From the NCBI RefSeq assembly GCF_013391105.1, contig NZ_CP058335.1, forward strand, positions 744,001 through 808,000: a stretch of 64,000 nt of DNA. The letters are read 5' to 3'. This document shows, one piece after another, positions 19,146 through 36,827 of this stretch. The first letter of the stretch is position 1. The number at the start of each line of letters is the position of its first letter. The translations under genes and the position numbers were made by a program. The stretch is from Natronomonas salina (GTDB lineage: Archaea > Halobacteriota > Halobacteria > Halobacteriales > Haloarculaceae). Below the pieces are notes generated by a model, which saw only the letters and a list, made by a program, of their open reading frames with translations, was not told the origin of the DNA and ran no database searches.

Positions 19146-19345
19146 TTACTGGTCTTCGGACTGCTTGGCCACACACCACTCGAAGATCTCCTGCTTCAAG
19201 TCGTCCGGCGTCTCCCCAAACAGACACCCGAGCCTATACCCCACTCCGACACTCGATGTACTTGGACGATGCACGGCTACAAATCGGCCGCTGTCGGCTC
19301 CATGGTAATCGAGTGGAAGAAAGATGGACTCGCCGGGGCTTCGTC
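19146..19345 (-). pseudogene. Possible gene fragment at the left integration boundary
   Basis: A 66-codon frame on the minus strand without an ATG runs from the attachment repeat to a TAA at 19146-19148. Its last part (GETPDDLKQEIFEWCVAKQ) reads like a real protein C-terminus. It may be the tail of a gene cut by an integration or deletion. No family recognised; the small size makes chance possible. Confidence 0.3.
19323..19337. repeat. Left attachment repeat (attL) of the integrated region
   Basis: gatggactcgccggg is identical to 36754-36768, which covers the last bases of the tRNA-Ala gene, and 13 of these bases recur at 34882. It lies 78 bases from the end of the integrase gene at 19415, the usual place for attL. 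Confidence 0.8.
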
Positions 19346-19414: not shown

Positions 19415-20491
19415 CTATTCCTCCTCGAGAAACTCTCGTCGGATCTCCATCTTCTCGCGCTCTGTCCGCTCGTCGTAGTGCTGATCGAGCACGTCGCTCG
19501 AGACGTTCGAGCGGTCCGACACCACCTCCTGGGGCGTCCCATTCCGAAGGTGGTCCGTGATCGCCCCACGGCGGATACCGTGCGGCGAGCGAGACGACGG
19601 GCAGCCGGCGCGCTTCCCGTGGCTCCGATAGGAGCACGTCTCGGGATCTTTGTTGTGCGGGCAGCCGCCGACCTCGCACGGCTGGGTAACGCGGTAGATC
19701 GTCTCGCGGATCGACCCGTCGCTGAGTCGGCCCTGTGAGCTCGTGATCAGTGGGCGTCGCCCGTGGTCGTCGGTGACCGAATCGCGGTTGTGCTGGAGGT
19801 AGTCCTCCAGGACGCTACAGTAGTACGAGCCGACGGCGATCGACCGCTCCGCCGCGGCCTTGTTCTTTAGAGGTGTCCCGCTCTCCGGCCGGTGCCGGAG
19901 GTCGAGACACCGCGCGTCGGAATCGAAGTCGTCGACGTCGAGCGCGCGGAGCGTCCCGAGCCGGATGCCGGTATGCCAGAGGACCGCGACGACAACGTGG
20001 TCGCGGCTGGCGTACGAGAATTGCTCGAGGTGCTCGAGGATCTCGTCGGCGCGCGCGGCGTCGAGGTGCTCGTCACGCGCCTCGTCCTCGGGCTCGATAT
20101 CGGGGAGCTGGACGCGCTCGCGCATCCCGGGCTCGACGGCGTCGATCGCCGCGCAGAACTCGAGAAACACACGGAACGTCTGGAGCTCGCCGCGGAGCGT
20201 CACGGTCTTCACTTCTTTGCTCCGCCAGACGCGGTACCGGTGGATGTCGCGACCGGTGAGCGCGTTCATGTCGTCGAGATCGTGGCGACTACAGAACTCG
20301 AGGAATTGATCGAGTCGGTAGCGCTGGTTCTGGAGAGATTTCTCTGAGAGTTCGGGGTCGCGTTCGGCGAGGTACCACTCCACGGCCTCGGCAGGCGTCG
20401 TGGGTTCGAGTCCATCGCTCATAGAACCCCGATGCCCGTCTCTCGCCGCGCTGGGAAAGGTACTTCGCCGCTCGTCGCTCTCACTGCTCAT
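19415..20491 (-). CDS. Tyrosine-type site-specific integrase (unit A)
   Basis: A 358-residue recombinase that inserts and excises the element by breaking DNA with a catalytic Tyr. A SAM-like N-terminal core-binding domain (about 30-130) precedes the catalytic domain: Arg177 (WHTGIR), Lys209 (TPLK), His304 and Arg307 (SPHGIR) and nucleophile Tyr339 (LDQHYD) are all present. Four cysteines (272, 277, 286, 297) form a zinc-knuckle-like insert before the HxxR box. The ATG overlaps the TAA of the upstream small gene, fixing the start. It resembles the SNJ2-type integrases of haloarchaeal pleolipovirus-like elements, which use short repeats in tRNA genes (established for that family; assignment inferred). 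Confidence 0.93.
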   Translation of the reverse strand: MSSESDERRSTFPSAARDGHRGSMSDGLEPTTPAEAVEWYLAERDPELSEKSLQNQRYRLDQFLEFCSRHDLDDMNALTGRDIHRYRVWRSKEVKTVTLRGELQTFRVFLEFCAAIDAVEPGMRERVQLPDIEPEDEARDEHLDAARADEILEHLEQFSYASRDHVVVAVLWHTGIRLGTLRALDVDDFDSDARCLDLRHRPESGTPLKNKAAAERSIAVGSYYCSVLEDYLQHNRDSVTDDHGRRPLITSSQGRLSDGSIRETIYRVTQPCEVGGCPHNKDPETCSYRSHGKRAGCPSSRSPHGIRRGAITDHLRNGTPQEVVSDRSNVSSDVLDQHYDERTEREKMEIRREFLEEE

Positions 20492-21759: not shown

Positions 21760-21762
21760 CAG

Positions 21763-21909: not shown

Positions 21910-21910
21910 C

Positions 21911-22153: not shown

Positions 22154-22185
22154 ATTACTCCTTGTGGTAGCATGCCTAAATAGAT

Positions 22186-22247: not shown

Positions 22248-22340
22248 ATAGAGACAGACCGGTCACTCAGGGCGTCGATCCTCGCGAGAAACGCCCGGGT
22301 GTTGCACCACCCAGGCCGGGTGTCTCTGGAGAGACCACCC

Positions 22341-22475
22341 ATGCAGACCCAACATACGGCGAAAGATGAACCCAGCGATGAACTAACCGACAACTGCGGA
22401 TGCACGGCACTGATGTCGTGCTTTGATCACTACCTCACGGAACGCGGCCGCCCCGCAATCCGGAGGATCAACTGA
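22341..22475 (+). CDS. 44-residue leading protein of the small-gene operon
   Basis: A short protein starting MQTQHTAKDEPSDELTDN with a CGC motif and a basic C-terminus (RGRPAIRRIN). GGAGAG ends about 8 bases before the ATG, a plausible ribosome binding site, which fits a leadered transcript from the TATA-like box at 22221. Its TGA shares one base with the next ATG. No family recognised. Confidence 0.6.
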   Translation: MQTQHTAKDEPSDELTDNCGCTALMSCFDHYLTERGRPAIRRIN

Positions 22476-22813
22476 TGGCGGTGACGACCAATACGGTCGA
22501 TGGCACCGAGGACGACGAGCTCGACGCTCGCGCCCTCGGCGAGTACATGACCGTCCTCGATGACGGCGACGTCCGCGCCCGCTCGGCGCCCGACCTCTAC
22601 ACCGTGACGACCCAGAGCGGTCGCGAGTACCTCGTCGATGCCACACTCCCCGCCTGCGAGTGCCCGGATCACGAACACCGCGACCGGATCTGCAAGCACA
22701 TCCGCCGCGTCCAGTTCGCGACCGGGCGCCGCGAGTTCCCCGAGTGGGCCGAGGATCATCACGTCGATCCCCAGCTCGGCATGCACGTCAACGACGTGCA
22801 GGAGGACGAGTAG
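22475..22813 (+). CDS. SWIM zinc-finger protein
   Basis: A 112-residue protein with a SWIM-type zinc motif: CECPDHEHRDRICKHIRRVQ gives CxC...CxH. Before it is a beta strand pair (YTVTTQSGREYLVDATLP), as usual for the fold. SWIM domains bind DNA or proteins, and single-domain forms are frequent in haloarchaeal plasmids and proviruses. Second gene of an operon of overlapping small genes; its TAG is directly followed by the next ATG. Confidence 0.85.
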   Translation: MAVTTNTVDGTEDDELDARALGEYMTVLDDGDVRARSAPDLYTVTTQSGREYLVDATLPACECPDHEHRDRICKHIRRVQFATGRREFPEWAEDHHVDPQLGMHVNDVQEDE

Positions 22814-22954
22814 ATGCCGAAGGTTACCATGAGCGGAGAGGGAGACACGATCATCGAGGCTATCTACGACCTCTCGTTGAACGTCGAGGCCGCCCTTAAG
22901 CGCGCCAAAGCCGCGAGCGACGAAACACCTGACGCTACTGGAGACCGCCCATGA
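22814..22954 (+). CDS. 46-residue acidic protein
   Basis: A small, mainly helical protein (DTIIEAIYDLSLNVEAALKR) starting directly after the stop of the SWIM gene and overlapping the next start by ATGA. No family recognised; the gene chain supports that it is real. Confidence 0.6.
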   Translation: MPKVTMSGEGDTIIEAIYDLSLNVEAALKRAKAASDETPDATGDRP

Positions 22955-23298
22955 CGCACGAACCCACCGAGATCACGATCGAGAGTAACGCCGAAACCAT
23001 CCCTGCCGACGGCCTCGGGGTTGACCTCGAGAACGCCGCCGACCCACTGAACGAGCTCCGGGTTGCAATCGCGAAGCGCGAGCAGCCCGCGTGGAACGTC
23101 ACAACACTCGTCGAAATCGACACCGAGACTGCCGAGCGCTTCCGTCCCGCCTTCGAGCAAGCAGTCAACGACCCCAGCGAGGATCTCCTCGATCTCATCA
23201 ACAACTACGCGGCGACCGACGTCCAGCTCACGATCCACGGGTATGACCCCGAATACTACTTCGAGGAGCGGAGCGAAAAGGAACGTGACCGTCTATGA
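22951..23298 (+). CDS. Unrecognised 115-residue protein
   Basis: Soluble acidic protein with alternating strands and helices; no motif I can name. It overlaps the upstream gene by ATGA and the downstream gene by 4 bases, so it is part of the coupled chain 22341-23855. The gene is GC-rich, unlike the cargo block that follows. Confidence 0.72.
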   Translation: MTHEPTEITIESNAETIPADGLGVDLENAADPLNELRVAIAKREQPAWNVTTLVEIDTETAERFRPAFEQAVNDPSEDLLDLINNYAATDVQLTIHGYDPEYYFEERSEKERDRL

Positions 23299-23501
23299 CG
23301 ACCGACACAATCATTAACGCGCTCGATACCGACGACCCGATCACCTGGGATGAACTCGTGGACGCGACCGGTCTCGACGAGGACACCCTCGACACCAAGA
23401 TCGGGGAGCTCCAGTTCGAGGGCACCGTCCGGGTGCGGGGCCGTGAACCCCACGGCTTCTACCTGACTGACGAGGGAAAGCGTGACAACGACGACGTGTA
23501 G
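23295..23501 (+). CDS. Small winged-helix-like protein
   Basis: A 68-residue protein reading as a short winged helix: ITWDELVDATGLDEDTLDTK as helix-turn-helix, then LQFEGTVRVRGREPHGFYLT as the wing strands. Probably binds DNA. It overlaps the genes on both sides (4 and 20 bases). Confidence 0.65.
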   Translation: MTTDTIINALDTDDPITWDELVDATGLDEDTLDTKIGELQFEGTVRVRGREPHGFYLTDEGKRDNDDV

Positions 23502-23703
23502 GCGCTGCGGGACCACGTTCGATACGAGTCGCGAGCCCGCCACCCGAGGCGCCGACCCCTCGCGCTGCCCCAGCTGCGGCGCGGAGAACGACGCGCCTCG
23601 AGGTGACGGCGGCGACGTCGACGAGACGATCCGCGTCCCCCGTGACGCCGGCGAGATCGAGGTTACTGTGACGCTCACAATCAACAACAGGAGGAATCCA
23701 TGA
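23482..23703 (+). CDS. Small zinc-ribbon protein
   Basis: A 73-residue protein with GTG start, 20 bases inside the previous gene. Two CxxC knuckles (TCRRCGTTF and RCPSCGAEN) form a zinc ribbon, followed by a strand-rich tail (EIEVTVTLTIN). Typical small nucleic-acid-binding protein of mobile elements. An ATG start is not available nearby. Confidence 0.68.
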   Translation: MTTTTCRRCGTTFDTSREPATRGADPSRCPSCGAENDAPRGDGGDVDETIRVPRDAGEIEVTVTLTINNRRNP

Positions 23704-23855
23704 GACGCAACATTACCGACGCCACAATCGAAGAGCGGATTCGCAAGCTCGAGGAAATCGAGGACGAACTTCGACTCGTCGCGGACACCGATTGCGCGTA
23801 CACCAAGCTCGCCCGGCGCTGGCTGAGAGCTCTCAAGGACGTGCGCGGCTACTGA
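23700..23855 (+). CDS. 51-residue helical protein, last gene of the chain
   Basis: Two charged helices (IEERIRKLEEIEDELRLVA and YTKLARRWLRALKDV). The ATG overlaps the TGA of the zinc-ribbon gene (ATGA). No family recognised. The sequence becomes AT-richer directly after its stop. Confidence 0.6.
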   Translation: MRRNITDATIEERIRKLEEIEDELRLVADTDCAYTKLARRWLRALKDVRGY

Positions 23856-23927
23856 GCGCTCAGTCCTCGGTAATATTTCTCAAAAAAGGATGCCAAGGCT
23901 TCGGAGTGAAGTGAGTACTAATGATCT

Positions 23928-24248
23928 TCATCCATCATTTAGTTCTCGTACTTTCATCCGAACTCTTGAAATTATCCACTCCTCAGTTTCCTCCCCCTCT
24001 TCATCAGTATCGGTTACTTTCACATATGTGAACTTCCTGTTTTGGACGATATAATCACTCTCTTTAGTCTCATCCACCAATTCGCCCTGCTCTGAGTTGA
24101 TTGAAGAGAGCTCAACTCTGTCACCCTCATCAGGGATAGGAAATTGATCAGAGACTAGGATAGCCAACAAATCACCTGTTTCCTCAGACAGGAACTCAAT
24201 CCCAATTCGATTGGTGCCAGAAATTTCGAATACTTCGTCGTCAGCCAT
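23928..24248 (-). CDS. Unrecognised 106-residue acidic protein
   Basis: A strand-rich, acidic soluble protein with no motif I can name. The ATG at 24248 lies 8 bases inside the end of the regulator gene, so the two form an operon; the alternative ATG at 24263 would overlap more deeply. Its base composition is clearly lower in GC than the chromosomal genes, marking the start of the cargo block. Confidence 0.68.
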   Translation of the reverse strand: MADDEVFEISGTNRIGIEFLSEETGDLLAILVSDQFPIPDEGDRVELSSINSEQGELVDETKESDYIVQNRKFTYVKVTDTDEEGEETEEWIISRVRMKVRELNDG

Positions 24249-24753
24249 TTTGCTCACCTGCAAGGAACTTGCTTATCTGCTCTTCATCCTGCGTTTTTTG
24301 TGTAGCAGATTTCTCTTTGGTCTCCTGACTAAGCTTCAATGCCTTCTCCACAGTGTTCAAACGAGATTCACCTGCTCTTTCCAGGATTTCGTCCGCATGA
24401 TCGGATAGCTCCCTATGGAATTCGGCTAAGAGCTGAACGACCTCATTTTGCTTGTTGACCTGATACCGAGTTGTTCCCGCCTCATCGTACTCGGTCATGA
24501 TCTCCAAGTCGAGCAGGAAATCTTTGTTACGGCTGAAGGTAGATCTTGAGATATTCGCCTGAGTTGCAATCTGTTCAGCTGTAAGTCTACTTGCGTTTCG
24601 GCGAATTAACGTGTCCAAGATTTTCGCCCTCCCTGGATTCTCAAGTAATTGGACGAATGGGGAGGATTCCGAGAATCTCCAACTCATACCCGGCTTTTCG
24701 TCTCCCCCATCAGGCGTGAGGCTATCTTCTGCCGTGGTTGAGTTGTATCTCAT
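24241..24753 (-). CDS. Winged-helix transcriptional regulator of the cargo block
   Basis: A 170-residue protein. Residues about 30-100 form a winged helix: PFVQLLENPGRAKILDTLIR then LTAEQIATQANISRSTFSRN as recognition helix. The C-terminal half is a long coiled-coil-like helix suited to dimerisation. A TATA-like GAATTATAG about 28 bases before the ATG at 24753 supports this start over the one at 24777. Direct repeats at 24791-24821 in the divergent promoter are likely its operators. Related regulators are common in haloarchaeal plasmids. Confidence 0.8.
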   Translation of the reverse strand: MRYNSTTAEDSLTPDGGDEKPGMSWRFSESSPFVQLLENPGRAKILDTLIRRNASRLTAEQIATQANISRSTFSRNKDFLLDLEIMTEYDEAGTTRYQVNKQNEVVQLLAEFHRELSDHADEILERAGESRLNTVEKALKLSQETKEKSATQKTQDEEQISKFLAGEQNG

Positions 24754-24790
24754 AACGGTGTAGGCCTTCGGGACCACGTCCTATAATTCT

Positions 24791-24821
24791 ATCCATGCAA
24801 TCGTCCCTTCCATCCATGCAA
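24791..24821. promoter_or_regulatory. Two direct repeats in a divergent promoter
   Basis: atccatgcaa occurs at 24791-24800 and 24812-24821, spaced 21 bases (two helical turns). The repeats sit between the TATA-like boxes of the regulator (about 24780-24788) and of the gene at 24869 (CTATAAGT, 24836-24843), as expected for a dimeric regulator's binding site. Confidence 0.55.
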
Positions 24822-24868
24822 AGCGAGCAGCGAATCTATAAGTGTTTTGCAGGGGGTGAAGAGAGTAC

Positions 24869-25147
24869 ATGGCTTCGCTGCGGGACGATGAAAAATTGGC
24901 TCTGAAGGCCATTATCATCGAGCTTGTTGTTTTTAACAGCGGGATGTTCAAGGCGGGCCACTATATATCCGATATTGATAATGTAGTGGATGGATACTCA
25001 CTGAACAATATTGAAAATATGGCAGAGGAATTGAATGGCTCCTACAATTGGGTAAATTATAAAGCAGGCCACATAAATATATCAAATAAAAATAAGGCCA
25101 AAGAGAAATTGAAGGAGCTAAGAGAAGAGTCCTTCTCATCAAGTTAA
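24869..25147 (+). CDS. Unrecognised 92-residue protein of AT-rich composition
   Basis: A helical protein rich in Asn, Ile, Lys and Ser, unlike the acidic haloarchaeal norm. A TATA-like CTATAAGT begins 33 bases before the ATG, giving a leaderless start. No family recognised. The codon use and Lys content suggest recent arrival from a different genome, or relaxed selection in an accessory region. Confidence 0.65.
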   Translation: MASLRDDEKLALKAIIIELVVFNSGMFKAGHYISDIDNVVDGYSLNNIENMAEELNGSYNWVNYKAGHINISNKNKAKEKLKELREESFSSS

Positions 25148-25281
25148 TCTACACTCCTATTCCCGACAGTAGAGATAGCCCCAGCAAAGTAGCCAAGAGG
25201 AGTCTAAGATTAGGACAATCGGCTCCGCATCGAGCAAGACCCACGTAACGCTTTTTCGCACCTCGGTCCGTGACCTCACGT

Positions 25282-25839
25282 ATGGCAATCTACGATGCTC
25301 TTCTGCGAATCCCGTGGTATATCGCCGTGTCTATTCTTCTGTCGCTCACGGTATTGATAGTATCTGCAACTAATCTCTATATGAGCCATTTTCAAAAGAA
25401 ACGCTCTGACGTCCGCATCCGCCAGCGATTCCAAACGGGAGCCGTCATTATGCAGGAAAAACGGTTGGATATCGATCTATTCCTCTATGCAGAGAATAGA
25501 GGCGATCTGAACGCAAAGCTGGCGTATGGAGGGGTGGAGGGTGAGGTGACGTTCCACGGTCCAATTGAGGAGAAGAATGTGGAGTCATCGGAACTCGATC
25601 ATACGAGCGGAGAGCTACAGTTTAACTCCCCGAATGAGGGTCTCCTGCCCCCTTCACACGGCTGTTCGCTGGTACTCCGCTTGTCGTTTCAGAAAGAAGG
25701 TCGAATGCGCGAACTCATCTACGACTATGAGCGAGCGGAGATCCCGTGGACCATCTCGGTGACAGAAGGGAAGAGAGATTACAGGGTCACAGGGCGGGCT
25801 ACTGTCCGGTTATCAAATCCAACCTCGGTAGACGAGTGA
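25282..25839 (+). CDS. Membrane-anchored protein with a beta-rich domain
   Basis: A 185-residue protein: one N-terminal membrane helix (about residues 9-30, IPWYIAVSILLSLTVLIVSA) followed by a basic stretch and a strand-rich soluble domain to the C-terminus. Without a cleavable signal it is probably an N-anchored protein; the soluble domain recalls small Ig-like or CARDB-like folds, but no motif proves it. Its last 27 bases overlap the convergent membrane-protein gene. Start at 25282 preferred to 25270. Confidence 0.68.
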   Translation: MAIYDALLRIPWYIAVSILLSLTVLIVSATNLYMSHFQKKRSDVRIRQRFQTGAVIMQEKRLDIDLFLYAENRGDLNAKLAYGGVEGEVTFHGPIEEKNVESSELDHTSGELQFNSPNEGLLPPSHGCSLVLRLSFQKEGRMRELIYDYERAEIPWTISVTEGKRDYRVTGRATVRLSNPTSVDE

Positions 25840-26220
25840 TTCCCGGATGAATGTTTGAGAAACGAGGTACCCCCAGTAAGCGAAAGAGGCGCCAATCATC
25901 ACAGCCAGCGTTGCTGTAACTCGGAATTGCATTGGCCCAAAATTGGGAATCAGGAGAATACCGATGTAGAGGTATGCAATCGCAATGAGCTCGATAGTTA
26001 TGCCGAATAGGATGCCCGCGATTGCAGCCGGGAGAGATGGCCAGTATCCGCCGAACGTGCTGAAAGGGGCCATTGCTTCTTCCCTTGACATGAAGAGACT
26101 CAGATCTTCATCTGTGGAGTGCTTGAATAGAAGGGTCAAACCAATACCGATGAGGAAATATAACGGTATCAACTCAACGAGCATCCAATATTGGTTTATA
26201 TCTAATTCTCCCATATCCAA
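25813..26220 (-). CDS. Four-helix membrane protein
   Basis: A 135-residue protein with hydrophobic segments near residues 14-31, 62-85, 78-95 and 101-122. The first loop is charged and soluble (STDEDLSLFMSREEAMAP). No family recognised. It converges on and overlaps the membrane-anchored gene at 25282, an arrangement that invites regulation by antisense transcription. AT-rich DNA follows upstream, containing its promoter. Confidence 0.65.
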   Translation of the reverse strand: MDMGELDINQYWMLVELIPLYFLIGIGLTLLFKHSTDEDLSLFMSREEAMAPFSTFGGYWPSLPAAIAGILFGITIELIAIAYLYIGILLIPNFGPMQFRVTATLAVMIGASFAYWGYLVSQTFIRESLVYRGWI

Positions 26221-26419
26221 GGAACGACTTAATTGATATTAAATATAAGGGTTAGATGACAACTGACGCTTATCGATGTCGTCGGCGATTAGAGAATGTC
26301 GTCGTCGGAGTGCTACTCAATGTGTTCATTCTCGCTGAAAGCCTCCCAGTCACATGGATTCAACATCCCGCTTTACAACATGCACCAGGAGAATATTTAA
26401 CACTGATAATCATTTTTAG

Positions 26420-26677
26420 ATGAATATGGCATTGAAGAGAATTATCACCTGGCCATTTCGCTACATCAAACAGACTCTTCGCGTTCTTGTGATGATATTC
26501 CTCGCACCAATCCTAATCATGCTGGATCTGATTCTCTATCTCCCATATCGGATGGTTGTCGGGGGACTCTTCGGTGAAGGTGCTGGCAAAGAAATTGGTG
26601 CAGCAACCGATCGGTGGAAGGGATGGGTTAGGGAGGTCCTCAGAGGACTTTTGAAACTTGTCGGCGTCGGGGAGTGA
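26420..26677 (+). CDS. Small amphipathic membrane protein
   Basis: An 85-residue protein with one or two hydrophobic helices (about residues 20-50), a basic N-terminus and an amphipathic C-terminal helix (RWKGWVREVLRGLLKLVGVG). A TATA-like ATATTTAA (about 26393-26400) is at the leaderless distance. The composition is that of a membrane-active peptide or small holin-like protein, but no family is recognised. 26221-26419 otherwise holds no gene. Confidence 0.62.
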   Translation: MNMALKRIITWPFRYIKQTLRVLVMIFLAPILIMLDLILYLPYRMVVGGLFGEGAGKEIGAATDRWKGWVREVLRGLLKLVGVGE

Positions 26678-26735
26678 GTTCACCGTTTTTGTTGAACAAG
26701 GTTACTGCGACCTACTCTGGAATCCAGGACGTCCC

Positions 26736-27371
26736 TCAGACGCTTGCTGAATCTATTGAAAAGTGGTCAGTATACACATCTAGTAGTTCCGCGACAAAAT
26801 CGAAGAACACCATAGGGTGCGCATCTGCTCCCCCTGCCGAAATATGCGGATTTGAGCCTCTCACCCCCCGGATGGTTGGGGGTGTTTTGCCGCTTAACGG
26901 AGAGTTCCTAACCCGGGTCGGGAACCAGTAGTGGTTGAAGTAAACTATCACCTCAGCAGGTGGCTCAATCTCGTCAACGGCTTTAACTACTGTTTCATAT
27001 GCATCTTTGTACTCCTCTTTCGTCCCCTCTCCTACCGGCGCCGGTGGGAGTCTGACACAAAATTGAGTCACGCGCCAGCCGTTCTTCGATTGTTCAAGGG
27101 CGGCAACACTGTAGGGCGTCCCTGCATTCCGATATGCTACATTGGCTGCATTTGTATGGCTTTTCAGTGATCGTGAGATTTTTGGTTGGAAAAGTAAGAA
27201 GTCGAGAACCGTTTGCCCCCCAATCCTGTGAGAAGATGCCTTAAACGCGAGCCGGTCTGCTCGCCGCTCAATGGATGGTAAATCTCTGATTGGCATCCGT
27301 TTCGACGGACATCCCGCACTGACTTTGTAGGGGTCAGGAACGAACGGAGTTATTTGTTTATAGGGGTCCAT
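26736..27371 (-). CDS. Unrecognised 211-residue protein
   Basis: A soluble, near-neutral protein with mixed helices and strands; no motif I can name. Its start overlaps the preceding low-confidence frame by 22 bases; a second possible start is at 27296. It is the last gene of the AT-richer cargo block and is less acidic than the genes to its right, which suggests a separate origin. Confidence 0.58.
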   Translation of the reverse strand: MDPYKQITPFVPDPYKVSAGCPSKRMPIRDLPSIERRADRLAFKASSHRIGGQTVLDFLLFQPKISRSLKSHTNAANVAYRNAGTPYSVAALEQSKNGWRVTQFCVRLPPAPVGEGTKEEYKDAYETVVKAVDEIEPPAEVIVYFNHYWFPTRVRNSPLSGKTPPTIRGVRGSNPHISAGGADAHPMVFFDFVAELLDVYTDHFSIDSASV

Positions 27372-27787
27372 ACAATAAAAGGAGGCGACGTTACTCTCTC
27401 GCCGAATTCGTCGAGCACTTTTCGATCCGCGCCACCAGTCATGTCCTCTATACTGACAGCGTAATCCTCCGAAATTGAGGTCATGGCTTCTGGGGTAGAT
27501 TCAGATTTGGGGATTCTGGTGAAAGACTGTCGTGCGTGCTGGGGTCGCGCCTGCGACGGATCGGAACGAACACTTCCGGGAGTGGGTTGGCGGTCGTCTC
27601 GAGGACGACACTTGTAGACTGCCGGTCGGATCTGCACCGACCGGCGACGACTGGGACCCAATTTTGGAGAGCGGTCGTCACCCCTCTCGCCAGCGCCCAC
27701 AGACACCGCCGACCGCCGCAGGTATCGCGCCAGCACGCACCACCTCATCGACAGGGCAGGACTGCGCTGTCGATCGCTCTGCGTCAC
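27350..27787 (-). CDS. Doubtful basic protein at the end of the small-gene chain
   Basis: A 145-codon frame with GTG start overlapping the stop of the upstream gene (GTGA). It continues the coupled chain, but the product is Arg/Pro/Ser-rich and basic, unlike all its acidic neighbours, and may be noncoding. Only the last 44 residues (from an ATG at 27484) look protein-like. If this is rejected, 27372-27783 is a gene-free junction between the small-gene chain and the cargo block. Confidence 0.25.
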   Translation of the reverse strand: MTQSDRQRSPALSMRWCVLARYLRRSAVSVGAGERGDDRSPKLGPSRRRSVQIRPAVYKCRPRDDRQPTPGSVRSDPSQARPQHARQSFTRIPKSESTPEAMTSISEDYAVSIEDMTGGADRKVLDEFGERVTSPPFIVWTPINK

Positions 27788-28143
27788 TCGATATCGTCCC
27801 GATATCTCGCTCGTACCTCCGAGGCGTTCTCGTCGAGCTCACCGACGCTCGCCTCGTAACCCGTGCCCCGGATGATGCTCGCGTACTTCCGCTGCTGGCT
27901 CCTCGTCTCCGCGTCCCGGAGCGCCTCGGCGTGCTCCGTTAGCCCGTGCTCCAGGCACTCCTCGTACGCCTCCACAACCCGCATCTCGCCCGCCGTCCGT
28001 CTCGCGCCAGAGTCCTCCAGATCCAGCGGCGCGTTCCGCCGATCCCGCCTCTCGTCCATCCGCGCCGCCACGCTCGCCGGATCAAACCCGTCGTCGTCGG
28101 TCTCGCCACTGTTCTCCTGGTCGGTGTTGTTGGTTCCACTCAT
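27784..28143 (-). CDS. Unrecognised 119-residue acidic helical protein
   Basis: A disordered, acidic N-terminus and a charged helical C-terminal two thirds (VVEAYEECLEHGLTEHAEAL). No family recognised. The ATG overlaps the stop of the next gene upstream (ATGA), part of the chain 30783-27784. Confidence 0.68.
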   Translation of the reverse strand: MSGTNNTDQENSGETDDDGFDPASVAARMDERRDRRNAPLDLEDSGARRTAGEMRVVEAYEECLEHGLTEHAEALRDAETRSQQRKYASIIRGTGYEASVGELDENASEVRARYRDDIE

Positions 28144-28631
28144 AGATGATCGAGCCTCTCCAGTCCGCGCTCCTCACACGCCGCCCCGAACGTCTCCGTC
28201 CCCGCGGCCTCGCACGCCTCCGCCTTCAGCTCCGCCACGTGATCCGCCGGCATCGCACTCCCCGACGACGCGAGCCGAGCATGGATCTCGCCGACCGAAT
28301 CATCAACATCCACATCAATGCCGTACGCCGCGAGCGCCGCCTCGTACTCATCGACGCCCGCGAGGTCGCACGCCTCCTCTCTCAGCGTCGCCTCGAGGTC
28401 GTCCGGCATCGGACCACTCCACCCCGAGAGCTTCGCATGGATCGTCTCCACGCGCTCGCTGGCATGCTCCCAGTCAGCGCTCTCGAGACGCTCGAGTTCC
28501 GACTGCCACTCGAGGCGCGGCTCGCTGTCCCCCGCCTTCGCGGTGAACGTGAGTTTCTTCCGGAGCGTGCTCATCCGCTCCGTTCGATCCGTCGTCTTCG
28601 GTTCCGGTCTGTCGTCGTTCTCAGTGCTCAT
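28140..28631 (-). CDS. Protein with two internal ~45-residue repeats
   Basis: A 163-residue acidic protein. The second half consists of two related units: ETIHAKLSGWSGPMPDDLEA (about residue 61) and GEIHARLASSGSAMPADHVA (about residue 112), each followed by a helix ending in EEACDLAG or AEACEAAG. Such duplication within a small protein suggests a repeated helical binding module. Overlaps its neighbours by ATGA on both sides. Function unknown. Confidence 0.7.
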   Translation of the reverse strand: MSTENDDRPEPKTTDRTERMSTLRKKLTFTAKAGDSEPRLEWQSELERLESADWEHASERVETIHAKLSGWSGPMPDDLEATLREEACDLAGVDEYEAALAAYGIDVDVDDSVGEIHARLASSGSAMPADHVAELKAEACEAAGTETFGAACEERGLERLDHL

Positions 28632-29056
28632 TGGTCGCTCGTTGAATCAGTCGGGAGAGCAGCGAGCTCCTCGTCGGAAACGCGCTCAACCGAGTCTTTC
28701 TGTCGCGCCATCTTCTCCGCCGTCTTCGGATTCCCCACGCGGAGGTACTCGAAATCCGGACGCTTCTCCAGGAGCGCCTCGAGTTCCGACGGCTCGATGC
28801 GCTCGATGCTATCGTACAGGCCGCCCTCGGCGCGCTCCAGCGCCGTCGCCAGCTCCTCCTGGTCGTCACCCGGAGCCACCTCGTAGAACCAGACGCGGTA
28901 TGATCCGCGCGTCGCCGTGTCGAACGAGAGCTTCCGCGCCTCAGTGTTCGGGAGATCCCGGTCGTCCGGATGGACGAGAGTCCCCACGTGTCGCTTGGCT
29001 CGGAAGTAGATCGCATCCGAGTTGATCTCGACGTCGTCGGGATCAATCACCGTCAT
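28628..29056 (-). CDS. Unrecognised 142-residue protein
   Basis: A soluble protein with strands at the N-terminus (INSDAIYFRAKRHVGTLVHP, and a YRVWFYEVAPGD strand) and charged helices after it. No family recognised. Coupled by ATGA overlaps to the genes on both sides. Its composition is typical of haloarchaeal proteins and unlike the cargo block. Confidence 0.68.
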   Translation of the reverse strand: MTVIDPDDVEINSDAIYFRAKRHVGTLVHPDDRDLPNTEARKLSFDTATRGSYRVWFYEVAPGDDQEELATALERAEGGLYDSIERIEPSELEALLEKRPDFEYLRVGNPKTAEKMARQKDSVERVSDEELAALPTDSTSDQ

Positions 29057-29244
29057 CGAACCGCCTCCATGTCCCGCGATTCGTATCTCCGCTCGGTTCC
29101 ATCGTCGGTCTGTGTGTTCGTATTCATGTCTGTGAAATCCGCATTCATTCGCTTGAAAAAGGCCGCGCGAGGCGGCCTCATGGGAGACAACGTAGACGAC
29201 CAGCGATCGCTGGGCTCGCCACGGGTCGCGACTCCCGGGGTCAT
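29053..29244 (-). CDS. Small basic protein in the coupled chain
   Basis: A 63-residue frame starting at an ATG that overlaps the upstream stop (ATGA) and ending with the same overlap. The product is Arg/Thr-rich and not helical, with alternative internal ATGs (MNADFTD, MNTNTQT). Its place in the chain supports translation; the composition is less convincing. Confidence 0.45.
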   Translation of the reverse strand: MTPGVATRGEPSDRWSSTLSPMRPPRAAFFKRMNADFTDMNTNTQTDDGTERRYESRDMEAVR

Positions 29245-29447
29245 CGCCGCTCCTCCGGCGCCGGCTCCATGCCGCTCGCCTCCACGAACTCCCGCCACTC
29301 CCGACGGGCGTCGTCCTCCGTCAACCCGTAGTCCTCCGGCTCCGCATCGCCGTCCTCGAGCTTGATGAAATCGACCCACTCGAGGCTCGCCTCCTCCTCC
29401 ACCTCGTCGAGCGCCTCCTCGATCTCCCGCTTCGACGGACGAGTCAC
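29241..29447 (-). CDS. SKRE-motif paralogue 1 (68 residues)
   Basis: Starts MTRPSKREIEEALDEVEEE, the shared N-terminal motif of four consecutive genes, then an individual acidic tail (EWVDFIKLEDGDAEPEDYG and a helical end). GTG start, with a GTGA overlap with the stop of the preceding gene. The motif predicts a short basic patch and an amphipathic helix, suitable for DNA or protein docking, while the tail would carry the individual function. No known family. Confidence 0.72.
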   Translation of the reverse strand: MTRPSKREIEEALDEVEEEASLEWVDFIKLEDGDAEPEDYGLTEDDARREWREFVEASGMEPAPEERR

Positions 29448-29692
29448 GACTCCAACCCTCCTGTCATCCGGACGTTGTACGAGAACTCGCTATCCGGCTC
29501 CGCGTCCGCATCGAGTTCGTGACCGTCGTCGTTCACGTAGACGCCGCGCTCGCTGCTCCACGTGTAGTACCCGCCGACGTCCGGGTCGGGATCACCACCA
29601 ATCACGAAGTAGTGGAACCCGTCCTCGTCGTCCTCGTCGTCATCCAACTCGTCGAGCGCACTCTCGAGCTCCCGCTTCGACCGCCGAGTCAC
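29444..29692 (-). CDS. SKRE-motif paralogue 2 (82 residues)
   Basis: Starts MTRRSKRELESALDELDDD, then an unrelated acidic, aromatic-rich tail (HYFVIGGDPDPDVGGYYTWS). GTG start in a GTGA overlap. Same N-terminal motif as its neighbours at 29241, 29689 and 29931; the tail has no similarity to theirs. Confidence 0.72.
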   Translation of the reverse strand: MTRRSKRELESALDELDDDEDDEDGFHYFVIGGDPDPDVGGYYTWSSERGVYVNDDGHELDADAEPDSEFSYNVRMTGGLES

Positions 29693-29934
29693 CGACCCTC
29701 ACCTCGCTCGCCGTCTCGCTCCAGCGTCAGCACCTCGGCGCCACCGGACAGCGACGTCGCCGACACCGTCCAGCCGTCCGGGATGTCCACGCCCGACCAT
29801 GGCTCTCGATCCGACTCGTACGTCACGAACTCGGCGGTCACGCTCTCGCGAGCATCGCTGAACTCGCCGGGATCGTCGTCCTCGGCGAGCGCCTCGAGAG
29901 CGCGCTCGATTTCCCGCTTCGACTTCCGCGTCAC
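29689..29934 (-). CDS. SKRE-motif paralogue 3 (81 residues)
   Basis: Starts MTRKSKREIERALEALAED, followed by a strand-rich tail (VTAEFVTYESDREPWSGVDI and SGGAEVLTLERDGERG). GTG start in a GTGA overlap. The first 13 residues are nearly the same as in paralogue 4, and the tail is unique. Confidence 0.72.
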   Translation of the reverse strand: MTRKSKREIERALEALAEDDDPGEFSDARESVTAEFVTYESDREPWSGVDIPDGWTVSATSLSGGAEVLTLERDGERGEGR

Positions 29935-30242
29935 GACGAATCACCCCATAGAACCCGAACCGGATCATCCGCGGCTGGAGCGTCCTCCGCTGGACCGAGG
30001 ATCTCGCGGTCCTCCTCCAGCGCCTGCTCGCGCTCCATCACAACGACCGGGTCGCGTTGCATCACGATCAGCGGGTCAGCGCCCTCGAACTCGTCCTCAG
30101 AGACGCGGTCAGCGTCGTCGCCCTCTCCGTCGTACCACTCCCCGGTCCTCGGATCTTCATAGACGATCGCGGGCGGCGAGTGGCGGTCGCCCTCCAGATC
30201 GTTCAGTGCCCGTTCGATTTCCCGCTTCGACTTCCGGGTCAC
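29931..30242 (-). CDS. SKRE-motif paralogue 4 (103 residues)
   Basis: Starts MTRKSKREIERALNDLEGD, then a longer acidic tail with short strands (ADPLIVMQRDPVVVMERE). GTG start in a GTGA overlap. First of the four in transcription order. The shared start block covers about 39 bases in each gene and differs from the others mostly at third positions. Confidence 0.72.
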   Translation of the reverse strand: MTRKSKREIERALNDLEGDRHSPPAIVYEDPRTGEWYDGEGDDADRVSEDEFEGADPLIVMQRDPVVVMEREQALEEDREILGPAEDAPAADDPVRVLWGDSS

Positions 30243-30505
30243 GACGGATCACACTCCACGGGTAACTCCCGGTCAGCATCGATCCACGGCGGCACGTCCG
30301 CTCGCGGCACGAAGAACTCGAAGACCTCCGTCCGCAACACGCAGACGTCCGACTCGCGCTCCTCCTCGAAGTCACCGAGCCCGCCCTCGAACCCGTTCGC
30401 GAGCGCATCCTCCAGGTACCGTCGCACCCAGCGCCGCGCGTCCGACGCCTCCTTGTCGATCGACTCGAGCACCGTCTCCGCATCGACGTCCGAGACCTGC
30501 GTCAT
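30239..30505 (-). CDS. Unrecognised 88-residue acidic protein
   Basis: Helical N-terminal half (VLESIDKEASDARRWVRRYL) and a strand-rich C-terminal half (VCVLRTEVFEFFVPR). The ATG at 30505 overlaps the stop of the upstream gene (ATGA); the longer upstream frame is the same DNA read inside the neighbour. No family recognised. Confidence 0.68.
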   Translation of the reverse strand: MTQVSDVDAETVLESIDKEASDARRWVRRYLEDALANGFEGGLGDFEEERESDVCVLRTEVFEFFVPRADVPPWIDADRELPVECDPS

Positions 30506-30783
30506 GGCTCCTCGTCCTCCTCTAGCAGTTGATCCACCTTCTCGCCGAGCTCCTCCAGGTCGCGGTCCGTCGTCACCTGCCGACGCACGTTGACCGAGTA
30601 GGCGAGCGCCCGAATCCACTTGATCCGCACCTTCTCGTTCTCCGGATCGTACACCCGCCCGCTCTCCACCTTCCGTCGCGCCTCCTCGATCGCGACGTCC
30701 AGGTCATCCAGCATCGCCTCGTAGTCCTCCAACCGACGCGGCTCCTCGTCGCCTCCCGCGCCTGCGCTCGCGTTGCCGCTCAC
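30502..30783 (-). CDS. First gene of the small acidic chain (93 residues)
   Basis: A helical, charged protein with GTG start: a disordered Gly/Ala leader, then two long helices (DYEAMLDDLDVAIEEARRKV and RDLEELGEKVDQLLEED). Resembles short coiled-coil proteins of haloarchaeal plasmids (DUF8136-like, from memory only). The spacer 30784-30925 upstream holds the likely promoter of the whole chain. Confidence 0.7.
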   Translation of the reverse strand: MSGNASAGAGGDEEPRRLEDYEAMLDDLDVAIEEARRKVESGRVYDPENEKVRIKWIRALAYSVNVRRQVTTDRDLEELGEKVDQLLEEDEEP

Positions 30784-30925
30784 GGAGCGGACACCCCGGG
30801 GGGTCTCGCTGTGATTCGACGGTTCTGAGGTTTCTCGTACATGATTTGGATAGGTTGGTGCGATTTTACTCGCGGCTTGTCAACGGCTACGGGAGGGGCT
30901 ACCTTCGGGGTCGGGGCGTTTTCAC

Positions 30926-31174
30926 TCAGCCGTCCGATTTCAGGGATTTCAGCCCCATTCGGAGGACGTCGACGTCGTCCAGGAGGTGTTTGTGCGTCCC
31001 GCAGTACGGGATGCCAGGGATCGCGTCGTGTTGGCAGCGGTCGCCGGTAGAGTCCGCGTATGCCTCGCACCGATTCTCGTCGGTGCTTGTCGACGTGGTG
31101 AACTCGTCGAGCGGGAGCTGTCGCTCCTCGGCGGCCACGTCGACGGCCCCCGAGTCCGAGTGCTTACCCGCCAT
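30926..31174 (-). CDS. Small zinc-binding protein after the helicase
   Basis: An 82-residue protein with a zinc motif of the form C..C..C..H (RCEAYADSTGDRCQH followed by IPYCGTHKH). The ATG at 31174 lies 11 bases inside the end of the helicase gene, so it is the last gene of the replication operon. The likely role is nucleic-acid or protein binding in replication of the element. Confidence 0.72.
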   Translation of the reverse strand: MAGKHSDSGAVDVAAEERQLPLDEFTTSTSTDENRCEAYADSTGDRCQHDAIPGIPYCGTHKHLLDDVDVLRMGLKSLKSDG

Positions 31175-34100
31175 GCGGGGGTGATCTATCCCCCGGCGGC
31201 TGGCCGCCATCGGTCGCGACCTCCTCGATCGGGGGTTCGTCCGTGTCGTCGCCGTCGTTCGCGCCGAAGTTCATGAACTCCCACGTATAGAGACTACTAC
31301 GTGCCAGTTCACGAACCTCGTCAGCGCCGAGATCGTCGAGAGAGACGCCCTCAAGCTCGACGTCGCCGTGTTCGTTGAGCCGGGCGACGCCACCGTCCCG
31401 CCAGACGACGCGTCGACCGTCGGTGTCGTCTTGGTGGCGCTCGAGCACGCCGAGATCCGCGCGGAGTGTCTCGAGGTGGTCGAACACCTGTCGTTTCCCG
31501 ACGTCGACCCCAGGGTGGGCGGCGATCTCAGCGGACGTGGCGGCGCCGAGGTCGCTGAGGGCGTCGATCACCTGTCGGAGGCCGTCGCTCCAGGTGGAGA
31601 GCACGCGGCCTTCGCCGGCGGTGGGCACCCAGTCGGGCAGCGTGTTGGTGTGGATGTAGACGGCGGCACCGTTGCCGTCGCGCCCGAAGCGCATCGCTGC
31701 CTGGAGGGTCTGATGCTCGCGCATATGGGTGAGGATCTCGTCGCCGACGTCGCCGTAGGAGAGGTCGGCGCCTTTCTCGTCGTTCCGCTCGACGGACTCG
31801 CCGTCGTAGGCGGCCCATTTCTTGATGAAGCCGTCGCCGTAGTGCGTGGAGCCGATGATCGCGCCGACGCGCTTCGATCCGAACTCGTTGCTCCCGAGGA
31901 CGTTCCCGTGGTAGGCGGTGCCGTCGGTGAGCGCGTTGACGTCGACGGCGTCGCTGGCGTCGTATTCGTGGAGCGCGGTGCTCGACGTGATCAGCCCGGG
32001 GGCTTCGCCGTGGTCCTCTTGGATGGCTTCGAGGAGCGCGGCGTCCTGCTCGATGCTGACGTAATCGGGGTTGTTGTAGGGTTTGACGGCGTCCGTCGTT
32101 GGGACGAGCTGGAGGCCGAGGCCGTCTTGGATGTACTCGCGGCGCTCGCTCTCGGAGAGCACCGGGCGGTGATGGAGCCGGGGGGCGCCGAGTGCCCGTC
32201 GCCACATGCGGAGCGTGGGGGTGCCGTCGAGCCCGACGACACCGCGCGTGTACTCCAGCGCCGGGGGATCGAGGAGTCGGAGGGTGCCTTGCTCGCGGTT
32301 GTAGACGGCGCTCGCGTTCTCGAGGTCGTCGACGTCGGCGCTGGAGAGGTCGGTGTGCTCCCAGCCGTTCCCGAGGTCGTCGCTGGCGAGCAGTGCGAAC
32401 GTCGCGATTGGCGCGGCGGCGTGGCCGGCCTGTCCGGCGAACACCTCGTCGGGATCGCGTCGGAGCGCGCCCTCGTCGAGGAACCAGGCGAGCGCGTCGG
32501 CGCGGTCGGCGTCGTCTCGCCGGCGCTCGATCAGGTCGGTGTAGTCGCTGTATGGGAGCTCGTCGTGGCGCTGGAGGAACTGGGTGACGGCGCCCTGGAG
32601 TCGCCCGCCGAGTTCGGTCTCGTAGGCGCTCGCGGGGAACTCGTCGAACACGATCGTTCGGCCCTCGCTGACTTTCGGTTTGTGAGCGTGCGCGTAGTGT
32701 CCGATGAGGACGTCGATCCGCTCGCCGTCCTCGCCGTCGCTATCCGGGTCGAAGTCCCATTTGTGGGCGTACTCGCAATCGTGGGGCTGGCCGTCCTCCG
32801 TGGCCTAACAGGGGAGTGGGCGGCCGAGTTCCTGTTCGGCGTACTTGTGGATGTCCTGAGGGGTGGCGCCGCGGCGGTACCAGTCGAGGACGCGCTCTTG
32901 CCAGTCGTCGCCGTGGTCGCCTCTCGCGGTCGGGCAGTCGTGGGTGAACGCGGGGAGCGTCTTATGGGTGAGGCCCTGCTCGTCGCACCACTGCTCGAAT
33001 TGCTCGTATTGCTCTTTGCGGCCGCGGCCGGTGAGGACGCTGATCGGCTCGTCGGTCGCGGCGGCCGCGCGGATCGTGCCGCTGCTCTTTCCGAGCGTCG
33101 GGAGCGCCTCAACGAGGACGCGCTCGTCGTACGTGTCGAGGGCGTGCTCGAGAACGTCCTGTGTCCGTGCTCTCGCGGCCGTGAGGGGGTCCTCCTGCTC
33201 GTCGTCGGTCGGGCCGGCCTCCCAGTCCCAGACGTTCCGCTCGGCCCGCTCCCGGGGCGTGTCGGGGAGGATGGCGACGTGCTCGACGTCGTCGCCGTCG
33301 TCGACGTACTCGGGGATGTCGAAGCCGAGGCCGCGGAGGTGCTCGACGCCCTCCCACCACAGCGAGCCGCGGGCATCCGAGGGTGCGGCGCCGCGGTCGG
33401 AGAGTTCGCCGGCGTGGATGAGCGCCATGACGACGGGGCCACCGTAACCGCCGCGGCTCCCGGTGTCCTGCCAGATCTGGTCGTCGACGACGTTCGCCGT
33501 TCCGTTGTCGCTGGGACTCCCCCAGGTGGGGATGAACGCGCGTTTCCCGCGGCTCGTCGAGGCGTCGTCGTTCCAGGACCCGACGATCGTGCGGTCGGCG
33601 ACGCGGCGGGCATCGAGCCGATCGAGCGCGGCGAAGACGTCGCGGATGTCGTCGGTTGTCTCGCTGCTGGTCGTCGTCGACGGCTCGTAGTTCTCGAGGT
33701 CAAAGCGCTCGCGGGCGGCTTCGACGTCCGGGCGAGAGTCGGGGAGCTGTCCCTGCTCGTCGAGAAGGGACTCCAGGGCGTCGGCGTCCCACTCCCGAAT
33801 CTCGGTCGGCGTCCCGGGGACGTGCTCGCCGGTCGCGACGCACACCCGCTTACCGGCGTAGATCTCGATCGAGGGTAGGTCGTCGTCGTTCGCGCCCCAG
33901 GGCTCGTCGTCGAGCTCCCAGGCAGCTTGCTTGACGCCGTCGGGGAGTTCACCGCGGTACTGAGCGTGAACGCCGGCGCCGCTCTGGGAGACGTCGGCAT
34001 ACGTGGCGCCGAGCTGCTCGAGGGCGTCGATGAACGCGGGATGGACGGCGCCGGTCTCGGGACACCGGACGTCGTCGCCGTCGACGTAGGCGTAGGGGTC

Positions 34101-34604
34101 GCTCTCCTGCTGGAGGAACGCGCGGCCGTCCAGCCGGTGATCGTCCTCAGCGAGTGCGACGGTCTCGCCGTCACGGTAGAGGTCGGTGATGCCCCACTTC
34201 CAGCGGGCGTCCTCGTCGGAGTCGGCGTCGGGGTGATCGCGGTCGCCCCACGGCGCGAACGGCTTCTTGTCGACGTGACCCATCCATTGCTCGCGCTCGA
34301 GGAGTTCCGTCGGCCACACTCCCGGGGTGGGGTTGCTAAAGTCGGCGTCGCGCCAGATGCACCCTGCGCGATTACGACTATTATCGTCCGATGTGACAGC
34401 ATCGTCGTCGTTCTCCGGAGTTGTCGCCCCGTCGCCCTCTTGCGTTTCAGTCTCGTTATCTATTCCATCGGAGGGGTTCTCGGATGGGGACTCGTCGGGC
34501 GGACTGACATTTTTCGAGCCTCTGGGAATGCAGTCCTCGCAGAGATACCCGTTCCCGAAGGGCTCGAAGCCGGGCGATCCGCACCGGAAGCAGTCGCCCG
34601 TCAT
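31164..34604 (-). CDS. PrimPol-type primase fused to a helicase, split by one in-frame TAG
   Basis: Read through one amber codon (32805-32807, codon 600) this is a 1146-codon replication protein. Order: an N-terminal zinc ribbon (CFRCGSPGF...YLCEDC), a primase-polymerase-like domain (about 75-300; YADVSQSGAGVHAQYRGELP, then the metal-site strand DLPSIEIYAGKRVCVATGEH), a linker, Walker A-like LPTLGKSS near 501, Walker B VFDEF near 652, motif III-like GLDGTPT and motif VI-like LQAAMRFGRDG, then a C-terminal winged helix. Motifs I and II lie on opposite sides of the stop in one unbroken frame, so the gene was once whole. Without readthrough, 599 residues are made and the helicase is lost. ATGA overlap fixes the start at 34604. 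Confidence 0.85.
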
Positions 34605-34708
34605 GCTCGACACCTCCCGTCATCGAGCGCCGGGCAGCGCTTCTCGGCCTCGTCGATCTCGCACCCGCAGTATTCGCAGATTGGGCGCTCGGGGTCGACG
34701 AGACTCAC
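34601..34708 (-). CDS. 35-residue zinc-finger protein leading the replication operon
   Basis: GTG start preceded on the minus strand by GAGGTG, a plausible ribosome binding site about 6 bases away. The product has CEYCGCEIDEAEKRC, a small zinc knuckle. Its TGA overlaps the primase ATG (ATGA). Too short for family assignment. Confidence 0.6.
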   Translation of the reverse strand: MSLVDPERPICEYCGCEIDEAEKRCPALDDGRCRA

Positions 34709-34830
34709 GCTGACCACCTCTGTTCCCTGAAAAAATCGCCAGCGGGCGGTGACCCGCGCTTGGCGGACTGTTGAACTCCCTTTTTCGTGGGAGGAACCTC
34801 CAGCCCAGAAGTGGCGAATCCGACCGTGTT

Positions 34831-34860
34831 GAGGGTTCTATCTTGCGATAGAGAACCCTC
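34831..34860. repeat. Inverted repeat upstream of the replication operon
   Basis: GAGGGTTCT-ATC-TTGC-GAT-AG-AGAACCCTC: a 9-bp outer stem and a 3-bp inner stem with a 2-base bulge, about 125 bases before the operon start. Could be an operator or an origin-linked hairpin for the excised element. Confidence 0.55.
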
Positions 34861-34881
34861 TCCACGGTACTTTATTTCAAG

Positions 34882-34913
34882 TGGACTCGCCGGGATTTGA
34901 GACCCGGGGCCTC
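34882..34913. repeat. Middle attachment repeat (partial tRNA-Ala copy)
   Basis: tggactcgccgggatttga matches 36756-36774 of the tRNA-Ala gene exactly; after one inserted g, acccggggcctc continues the match. This 31-base tRNA 3'-end copy marks the border between the two integrated units. Confidence 0.88.
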
Positions 34914-35085: not shown

Positions 35086-36084
35086 ATGCTCGAACCAATC
35101 TCACCACGACGGGCGAAGGAACTGTACCTCGAAGACCGCACTGACCTCAGTGCGACATCGAAGCAAAACCACGGATATCGCGTAGAACGGTTCGTGGAGT
35201 GGTGCGAGGAGAACGACCTCGACAATCTCAACGACCTCAGTGGACGGAATCTCCACGAGTTCAAGGTCTGGCGAGCGCAGGACGTGAACAACGTCACGCT
35301 CCAAAACCAGCTCGGGACCGTCCGACAGTTCCTCGATTTCTGCGAGAGAATCGACGCGGTGCCGAGTGGATTAAGCGGGAAGGTCGAACTCCCTCAACTC
35401 GGGATGAACGAGGACGTGAGCGACGCGGCCATCTCACCCGAGGAAGCCGACGCGATTCTGGACTACCTCGACAAGTACGAGTACGCAACACTTCGGCACG
35501 TCATCTTCTACACGCTCTGGCATACTGGCATCCGAACCAGTACGCTCCGAGCGTTCGACGTGACTGACTTCCACCCCAGTGAGGGCTACATCAAGGCGAT
35601 AAATCGGGAATCCACGGGAACGCCGCTGAAGAACCGTGAACGCGGCGAGCGTGAAATCAACCTTGGGGCAGACCTTGTGGAGGTCATTGACGACTGGGTT
35701 CACGACCAGCACCCTCACGTCGAGGATGAGCATGGACGGATGCCACTCATCTGCACGCCCCATGGCCGTGCTCACGAGACGACCATCCGCTCTCACGTCT
35801 ACAAGGTTACGCGCCCCTGCTATTACACGAACAAATGTCCTCACAGCCGCGATATGGCAGAGTGTGAAGCGGTAAACAACGGGAAGGCCAGCCGGTGTCC
35901 ATCCTCCGTAAGTCCCCACGCGATTCGCAAAGGGTCGATAACTTACCATCGAAACAAAGGCTGGCCGGTCGAGGCGGTCAGTGATAGAGCGGATGTGAGT
36001 AAGGAGGTACTGGACAAACACTACGACAAGGCGTCAATCACCGAGAAGCGCGAAAGGCGGACAGAGTTCCTCGATAGGTTGTAG
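35086..36084 (+). CDS. Tyrosine-type site-specific integrase (unit B)
   Basis: A 332-residue recombinase of the same family as the one at 19415. N-terminal SAM-like domain, then the catalytic set: Arg in WHTGIRTS, Lys in TPLKNR, His and Arg in SPHAIRKG and the nucleophile Tyr in LDKHYDK. The Cys insert (PCYYTNKCPHSRDMAEC and SRCPSS) is also conserved. The gene is intact. It points toward the tRNA-Ala gene, whose 3' end is its likely target. Unit B has no visible replication gene, so it may depend on unit A or be a reduced element (inference). Confidence 0.93.
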   Translation: MLEPISPRRAKELYLEDRTDLSATSKQNHGYRVERFVEWCEENDLDNLNDLSGRNLHEFKVWRAQDVNNVTLQNQLGTVRQFLDFCERIDAVPSGLSGKVELPQLGMNEDVSDAAISPEEADAILDYLDKYEYATLRHVIFYTLWHTGIRTSTLRAFDVTDFHPSEGYIKAINRESTGTPLKNRERGEREINLGADLVEVIDDWVHDQHPHVEDEHGRMPLICTPHGRAHETTIRSHVYKVTRPCYYTNKCPHSRDMAECEAVNNGKASRCPSSVSPHAIRKGSITYHRNKGWPVEAVSDRADVSKEVLDKHYDKASITEKRERRTEFLDRL

Positions 36085-36755: not shown

Positions 36756-36827
36756 TGGACTCGCCGGGATTTGAACCCGGGGCCTCTCCCATGCCAAGGG
36801 AGTGATCTACCGCTGATCTACGAGCCC
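36756..36827 (-). tRNA. tRNA-Ala (GGC anticodon), integration target
   Basis: A 72-base tRNA on the minus strand: acceptor GGGCTCG pairs with CGAGTCC (one G-U), D-stem GATC/GATC, anticodon stem CTCCC/GGGAG around loop TTGGCAT (anticodon GGC, alanine), T-stem CCGGG/CCCGG with TTCAAAT, discriminator A. CCA is not encoded. Its 3' end is the repeated att core, and the gene is intact after integration, as for most tRNA-targeted elements. Confidence 0.96.

Follow-up and report, generated by a model that had tools for sequence, protein, structure and literature searches.

In P22, residues 1-58 of TerL form the minimal TerS-binding domain and the C-terminus of TerS binds TerL, and the TerS of T4-like phages, a simple helical hairpin, lacks a canonical HTH (PMC9611059). 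Bacterial satellites turn their own TerS, or the small TerS-binding proteins Ppi and Rpp, on the terminase of the helper (PMC6739421). A literature search turned up neither a description of satellites of tailed archaeal viruses nor a small terminase made up of a core plus exchangeable adaptor proteins. Here we describe a haloarchaeal gene module that is compared with these systems below; its genes were read at a set of loci numbered with the prefix L and in the window, the 64,000-nt stretch at positions 744,001-808,000 of the Natronomonas salina chromosome in which the module was noticed.

The array and its element in Natronomonas salina

Positions 19323-34900 of the window are an integrated element of about 15.6 kb at a tRNA-Ala gene, because copies of the tRNA 3' end flank the segment and an integrase lies at one end and a primase-like gene at the other. 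The features are as follows.

19323..19337 (+), att repeat at the distal element end, 15 nt, GATGGACTCGCCGGG, a copy of the tRNA-Ala 3' end
19415..20422 (-), the element's own tyrosine integrase gene (PF00589, E 7.5e-11)
29241..29447 (-), SKRE gene 4, 68 aa, head MTRPSKREIEEALDEV
29444..29692 (-), SKRE gene 3, 82 aa, head MTRRSKRELESALDEL, tail homologue at L140 7826-8068
29689..29934 (-), SKRE gene 2, 81 aa, head MTRKSKREIERALEAL, tail kin the L058 gene 9136-9321
29931..30242 (-), SKRE gene 1, 103 aa, head MTRKSKREIERALNDL, tail kin in L123, L140, L059 and L063
30239..30505 (-), 88-aa ORF between DUF93 and the array, with neither head nor family match
30502..30783 (-), DUF93, 93 aa, the conserved partner that immediately precedes head-bearing genes
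31164..34613 (-), replication (primase-like) gene, 46% identical to the intact 1077-aa gene of L058
34882..34900 (+), att repeat at the proximal element end, 19 nt of the tRNA-Ala 3' end
36756..36827 (-), tRNA-Ala(GGC), the integration target

A single in-frame TAG splits the replication gene into same-frame ORFs at 32805-34613 and 31164-32651, and because of this stop the window copy of the element may be defective, perhaps unable to replicate. The Natronomonas salina genome contains no TerL at E 1e-20, hence none is present in the element. A second integrase gene (35086-36084, +), between the tRNA-Ala gene and the inner att repeat at 34882, looks like the remnant of another element at the same site. 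Two further genes, one for a 72-aa protein containing LDEHHDTLGDELRDVVCED (21911-22129, -) and one for a CxCPDHE..C.H zinc-finger-like protein (22475-22813, +), have relatives in other DUF93 elements (L058, L064, L067) and form a second conserved block in the backbone that these elements share.

The operon is on the minus strand and runs from DUF93 through the 88-aa ORF to the four SKRE genes, all linked by 4-nt overlaps. As the sequence-only reading had it, the four consecutive genes at 29241-30242 open MTR[KRP]SKRE[IL]E, and each has a GTG start in a GTGA overlap with the preceding stop. The opening leads into a short, basic, capped amphipathic helix, and this unit is the head. The shared block of about 39 bases named in that reading is a fair summary of the core of a repeat family that a repeat search defined as four copies of 69 nt with 62-78% identity. 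The 3.75-Mb single-contig chromosome holds four heads, all of them in the array; two further pattern matches are internal to unrelated ORFs. Heads are absent from 19 sampled genomes of the genus. Because the chromosome holds just these four heads and the 19 genomes none, the shared block is not due to chance.

Beyond the heads, the four proteins are mutually different, as had been noted, but three of the four tails have relatives elsewhere. Compared tail to tail, the 82-aa protein matches an L140 protein at E 7.5e-15, the 103-aa protein an L123 protein at E 1.5e-9, and the 81-aa protein an L058 protein at E 2e-4; no relative of the 68-aa protein's tail was found in this comparison. An AlphaFold2 prediction for the 82-aa protein is of low confidence (pLDDT 56) and gives only a helix at residues 4-17, which is the head, and short strands. 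Sequence searches of Pfam, PHROGs, NCBIfam, PADLOC and the PDB returned nothing for the SKRE proteins or DUF93, and none of 10 proteins matched a PADLOC defence model.

Heads, DUF93 and their elements among haloarchaea

Of 391 genomes of the class scanned for the head pattern, 31 had matches, and the genuine heads were often tandem, in sets of two or three. When all frames around the loci were read, 42 SKRE proteins were recovered from 17 loci, with 1-6 per array; gene calls were mechanical and heads were read from the raw frames. The Arg, the Ser, the RE pair and hydrophobic residues at positions 5, 9 and 12 are conserved in the 42 proteins, and the Ser-x-x-Glu would be a helix cap. The hosts include Haloferax, Haloarcula, Halorubrum, Halorussus, Halarchaeum, Halegenticoccus and Halobellus. 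The idea that the head is a general N-terminal motif of haloarchaeal proteins was considered and rejected; null genes do not score. Outside the cellular genomes, a head-only tblastn search of phages and plasmids gave no match and pattern scans of viral contigs gave no true head arrays; the DUF93 search of viral contigs identified two contigs.

The partner gene was sought without reference to the head, and DUF93 homologues were found in 41 of the 391 sampled genomes. With a leave-one-locus-out head profile, trained without the tested locus, a head was present within the first three downstream genes at 43 of 50 DUF93 loci, where about 1.5 were expected, and at 31 of the 38 loci that had been reached by way of DUF93 only. 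What follows DUF93 varies. In many loci the next gene encodes TerL, with a start such as MTNPTKREIERLLEELKRE; in others it encodes a 217-239-aa protein starting MTKRRLERDLE; in further loci there are small proteins opening MKRNIERRLDTLEE or MTRRSLANRVGDLED, the latter being the head on the L140 7826-8068 protein, the tail homologue of window gene 3. Across loci, the similarity of DUF93 proteins correlates with that of heads (Mantel r 0.48, 0 of 5000 permutations), a value to which shared ancestry, not controlled for, could contribute; such a correlation would be expected if all the heads of one locus had to fit the same DUF93.

The neighbour order integrase, primase or replication gene, DUF93, array is recurrent, and one locus is a complete, free 8.9-kb plasmid of Halorientalis litorea with DUF93, a single 190-aa head protein and no virion gene. 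Within the stretches read, the elements have single virion-assembly genes and no capsid set, and many arrays sit in an element without any other virion gene. Among these genes are TerL and, in L136, a prohead protease. In L048 the stop of a SKRE gene overlaps the start of a TP901-type tape measure gene (5020-7960; TIGR01760, E 2.7e-45), and tape-measure-like genes are present in L059 (10839-14186) and L067 (5814-7604), both 3' of the arrays, and in L101 (1430-2854). In each of these four loci the tape measure or tape-measure-like gene, beside a SKRE array or DUF93, is the only tail gene in the stretch read.

The arrays are carried by small integrative elements and plasmids that look like satellites of tailed haloviruses. 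Of the features by which satellites are recognized, the window element has an integrase with att at a tRNA gene, and a replication gene of its own, here with an in-frame stop, without a complete virion set in the stretches read. As in PICIs and SaPIs, a small integrative element carries an integrase, a replication gene and small proteins that would be aimed at terminase. Unlike those, the haloarchaeal elements have archaeal hosts, show no sequence relation, and carry an array of putative adaptors with one constant, presumably docking head. A different setting is found at L103-L120, a recurrent chromosomal locus in which a Cdc6/Orc1-like ATPase gene and DUF93 precede either a solitary TerL gene or the gene for the 217-239-aa MTKRR-head protein, with no other virion genes nearby; it is possibly a domesticated or an unfamiliar mobile packaging module. 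At L121, DUF93 is followed by a TerL gene broken by several stops, a decayed DUF93-TerL pair.

TerL, TerS and the tails

The TerL proteins were identified by phrog_2 (E 1e-21 to 6e-26) and PF03237. All 12 TerLs with an N-terminal extension of about 50 residues that bears the head have DUF93 in the locus, and no halovirus or proviral TerL without the extension has it; the DUF93-type TerLs may be one clade, so this correlation may reflect one event. Two of the loci, L147 and L148, were reached only via the TerL search, and DUF93 was then found in both. Extension-free TerLs, among them those of HSTV-1, BJ1, Humcor1, HRTV-28 and the Deep Lake virus, have just 5-25 residues ahead of the ATPase core, and where the upstream gene was in reach it encodes a classical TerS. 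In L103, L104, L106-L109, L135, L137 and other loci the gene directly upstream of TerL is a DUF93 homologue. Given the linkage of heads to DUF93 and the correlation between TerL extension and DUF93, therefore, the most likely role of the head is that of a helix docking on DUF93, which itself occupies the small-terminase (TerS) position where, on the simplest reading, it would do the work of TerS. The placement recalls P22 TerL 1-58, in that the TerLs encoded next to DUF93 carry the head at their very N-terminal end; unlike the P22 domain, the putative docking helix is also present on 1-6 small non-ATPase proteins.

DUF93 itself is predicted by AlphaFold2 to be a two-helix hairpin (pLDDT 84) with a disordered N-terminus; hairpins match many unrelated folds, and fold searches with this one gave generic helical matches only and no TerS. 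No HTH is predicted, and no match above chance was obtained with Pfam, PHROG, NCBIfam, TerS profiles or solved TerS. The protein ends after helix 2 and so has no TerL-binding C-terminal tail. In sum, DUF93 resembles TerS (BJ1 ORF48, T4-like gp16, P22 gp3) in its place upstream of TerL and in its predicted helical hairpin, and differs in lacking a TerS-model match and an HTH and in that many of the elements have no TerL. The C-terminus missing from DUF93 has a counterpart on separate head proteins, for the tails of one SKRE class carry the sequence of halovirus TerS C-termini.

In this class, the SKRE tails IICRDHVVETPWEPSEDTE (L063), VIELRDTVVATPWEPTEGE (L140), IVMSETIVETDWELNQ (L059) and IVINDIVVPTDWERDQ (L058) can be set beside the C-terminal end of BJ1 TerS, VEVEFHEEVVETPWNPDEDTE, and the similar TerS ends of L158 and L155. 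Scored against a profile built from 13 TerS C-termini, 7 of the 75 tails lay above the 99.9th percentile of real-protein windows, as against 0.08 expected, and profile-profile comparison (hhalign) of the tail class with halovirus TerS C-termini gave E 3.6e-6 and a probability of 87.5. The motif [VI]V.T[PD]W is present in 6 head proteins and 3 halovirus TerS C-termini, and a scan of 230,140 other residues found it in one unrelated protein, apart from a head protein that had been called a second time. In all, about 8 of the 75 tails resemble TerS C-termini and about 67 do not. The window's four tails gave no direct match to the TerS profile (best p 0.06); the 103-aa protein links to the TerS-like tail family via L059 and L063 (E 1e-4 and 2e-3). 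A second tail class (xVTIxxHRVDEDGE) is like other TerS ends by eye, but the profile comparison with TerS gives it only a 13% probability. Searches of phages with the tails gave no credible match.

The same tail families occur on very different heads. Compared without their heads, 46 of 70 tails group into cross-locus families. The tails of L068 and L119 match at E 2.6e-34, yet their heads have a similarity of 0.27; for the window gene 29444-29692 and L140 7826-8068, matched through the tail as given above, it is 0.38. Head similarity is 0.54 within a locus, between proteins with unrelated tails, versus 0.46 across loci between proteins with related tails (p 0.0014, the pairs being non-independent). 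In a natural head-plus-domain fusion, a domain that stands alone in L052 (189-710) is joined to an SQRE head in L063 (1368-1871). The proposal of a constant docking head with variable tails, made from the window's letters, is thus supported in that the head is shared beyond the locus, nearly always near one partner gene, and in that tail families recur on different heads. The result that would have spoken against that reading, tails that are all conserved single-copy genes together with a head shared nowhere else, was not obtained.

Explanations for the module

We tentatively favour a split, modular small terminase in satellite-like elements, in which a DUF93 core would be joined to the TerLs of helpers by SKRE adaptors. 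The window's four genes would be one array of a haloarchaeal module consisting of DUF93 followed by genes with a DUF93-docking helix. DUF93 would be a TerS-like core, a helical hairpin in the TerS position without the usual TerL-binding C-terminus; the SKRE heads would plug into it, and the tails would be interchangeable. TerS-like tails could then bridge the element's DUF93 to the TerLs of different helpers and so redirect packaging, and other tails might recruit a helper TerL or another assembly protein. In an element or provirus with a TerL of its own, the head would be on TerL itself and an adaptor would be unneeded. With several tails, one element would be served by several helpers, and a change of helpers would bring with it the gain, loss and exchange of tails. 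The further suggestion that the rack of interchangeable adaptors, each fitted to a different helper motor, gives a broad and quickly evolving helper range is put forward with somewhat greater reserve. Docking of the heads on DUF93, a TerS function for that protein, redirection of packaging, a satellite way of life, and an adaptor role for the window's own tails are all inferred.

Other roles for the same proteins can be envisioned. DUF93 might be a general hub rather than a small terminase, with TerL as one client and the SKRE proteins as clients of diverse tasks, such as anti-virus or anti-host effectors. The many tails unlike TerS, several of whose families have no virion-protein relative, the Halorientalis litorea plasmid with its lone head protein, and the Cdc6-linked loci in which a protein of unassigned kind replaces TerL all speak for a hub. 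We nevertheless consider it somewhat less likely, as the TerL extension and DUF93 are fully correlated, one class of tails is like TerS, and an effector role finds no PADLOC, Pfam or PHROG match. A good deal less probable is that the SKRE proteins are packaging inhibitors, mimics of the TerL head that occupy the DUF93-type TerS of competing viruses much as SaPI Ppi does. The head is indeed common to SKRE proteins and TerL, and bacterial satellites do encode Ppi and Rpp, but an array encoded with the element's own DUF93 would bind that protein too, and inhibition alone needs neither 1-6 different conserved tails nor TerS-like C-termini. That the SKRE proteins are tail-assembly chaperones, encoded by small genes just before the tape measure gene, is the least credible of these roles: the position fits in three elements (L048, L059 and L067), but a tape measure gene is missing from most arrays, including that of the window, there is no family match (Phage_TAC_12, at E 0.24, is far below the cut-off), and the constant neighbour is DUF93.

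The sequence-only reading had likened the array to cassette systems assembled by recombination at the common block, and this part of it found little support. The set of genes in an array does change fast. Over 4.1 kb, up to 35 nt before the DUF93 stop, L058 and L059 have 86% identity, and beyond this homology their arrays, of three and six genes, do not align; L128 and L133 have array genes in common in an altered order. Both observations would suit a 39-base recombination site that swaps tails. The heads, however, use both TCN and AGY serine codons, and their synonymous differences within arrays (0.57) are at the level of a random codon draw (0.56); because of these two properties, the head is conserved as protein and not as DNA. 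The window (0.38 versus 0.54) and L058 (0.17 versus 0.53) are exceptions with lower synonymous differences, which speak for the cassette idea there and make newer copying of heads possible. Against a recombination site are also the several arrays with non-SKRE heads (MKRNIERRL, MTRRSLANRV) that have no conserved DNA block, and the end of the L058/L059 homology, which is before the head and not at it. We therefore regard a DNA-level cassette system as very improbable.

If the split small terminase is correct, it would show how a parasite of viruses can extend its range of helpers through the gain or exchange of a single small gene, a function would be assigned to unannotated gene families, and the arrays would be a natural toolkit for the study of recognition between small and large terminases. 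Should the packaging model fail, the pairing of DUF93 with heads would still offer a clean and testable case of protein docking, one found repeatedly in many genera of haloarchaea.
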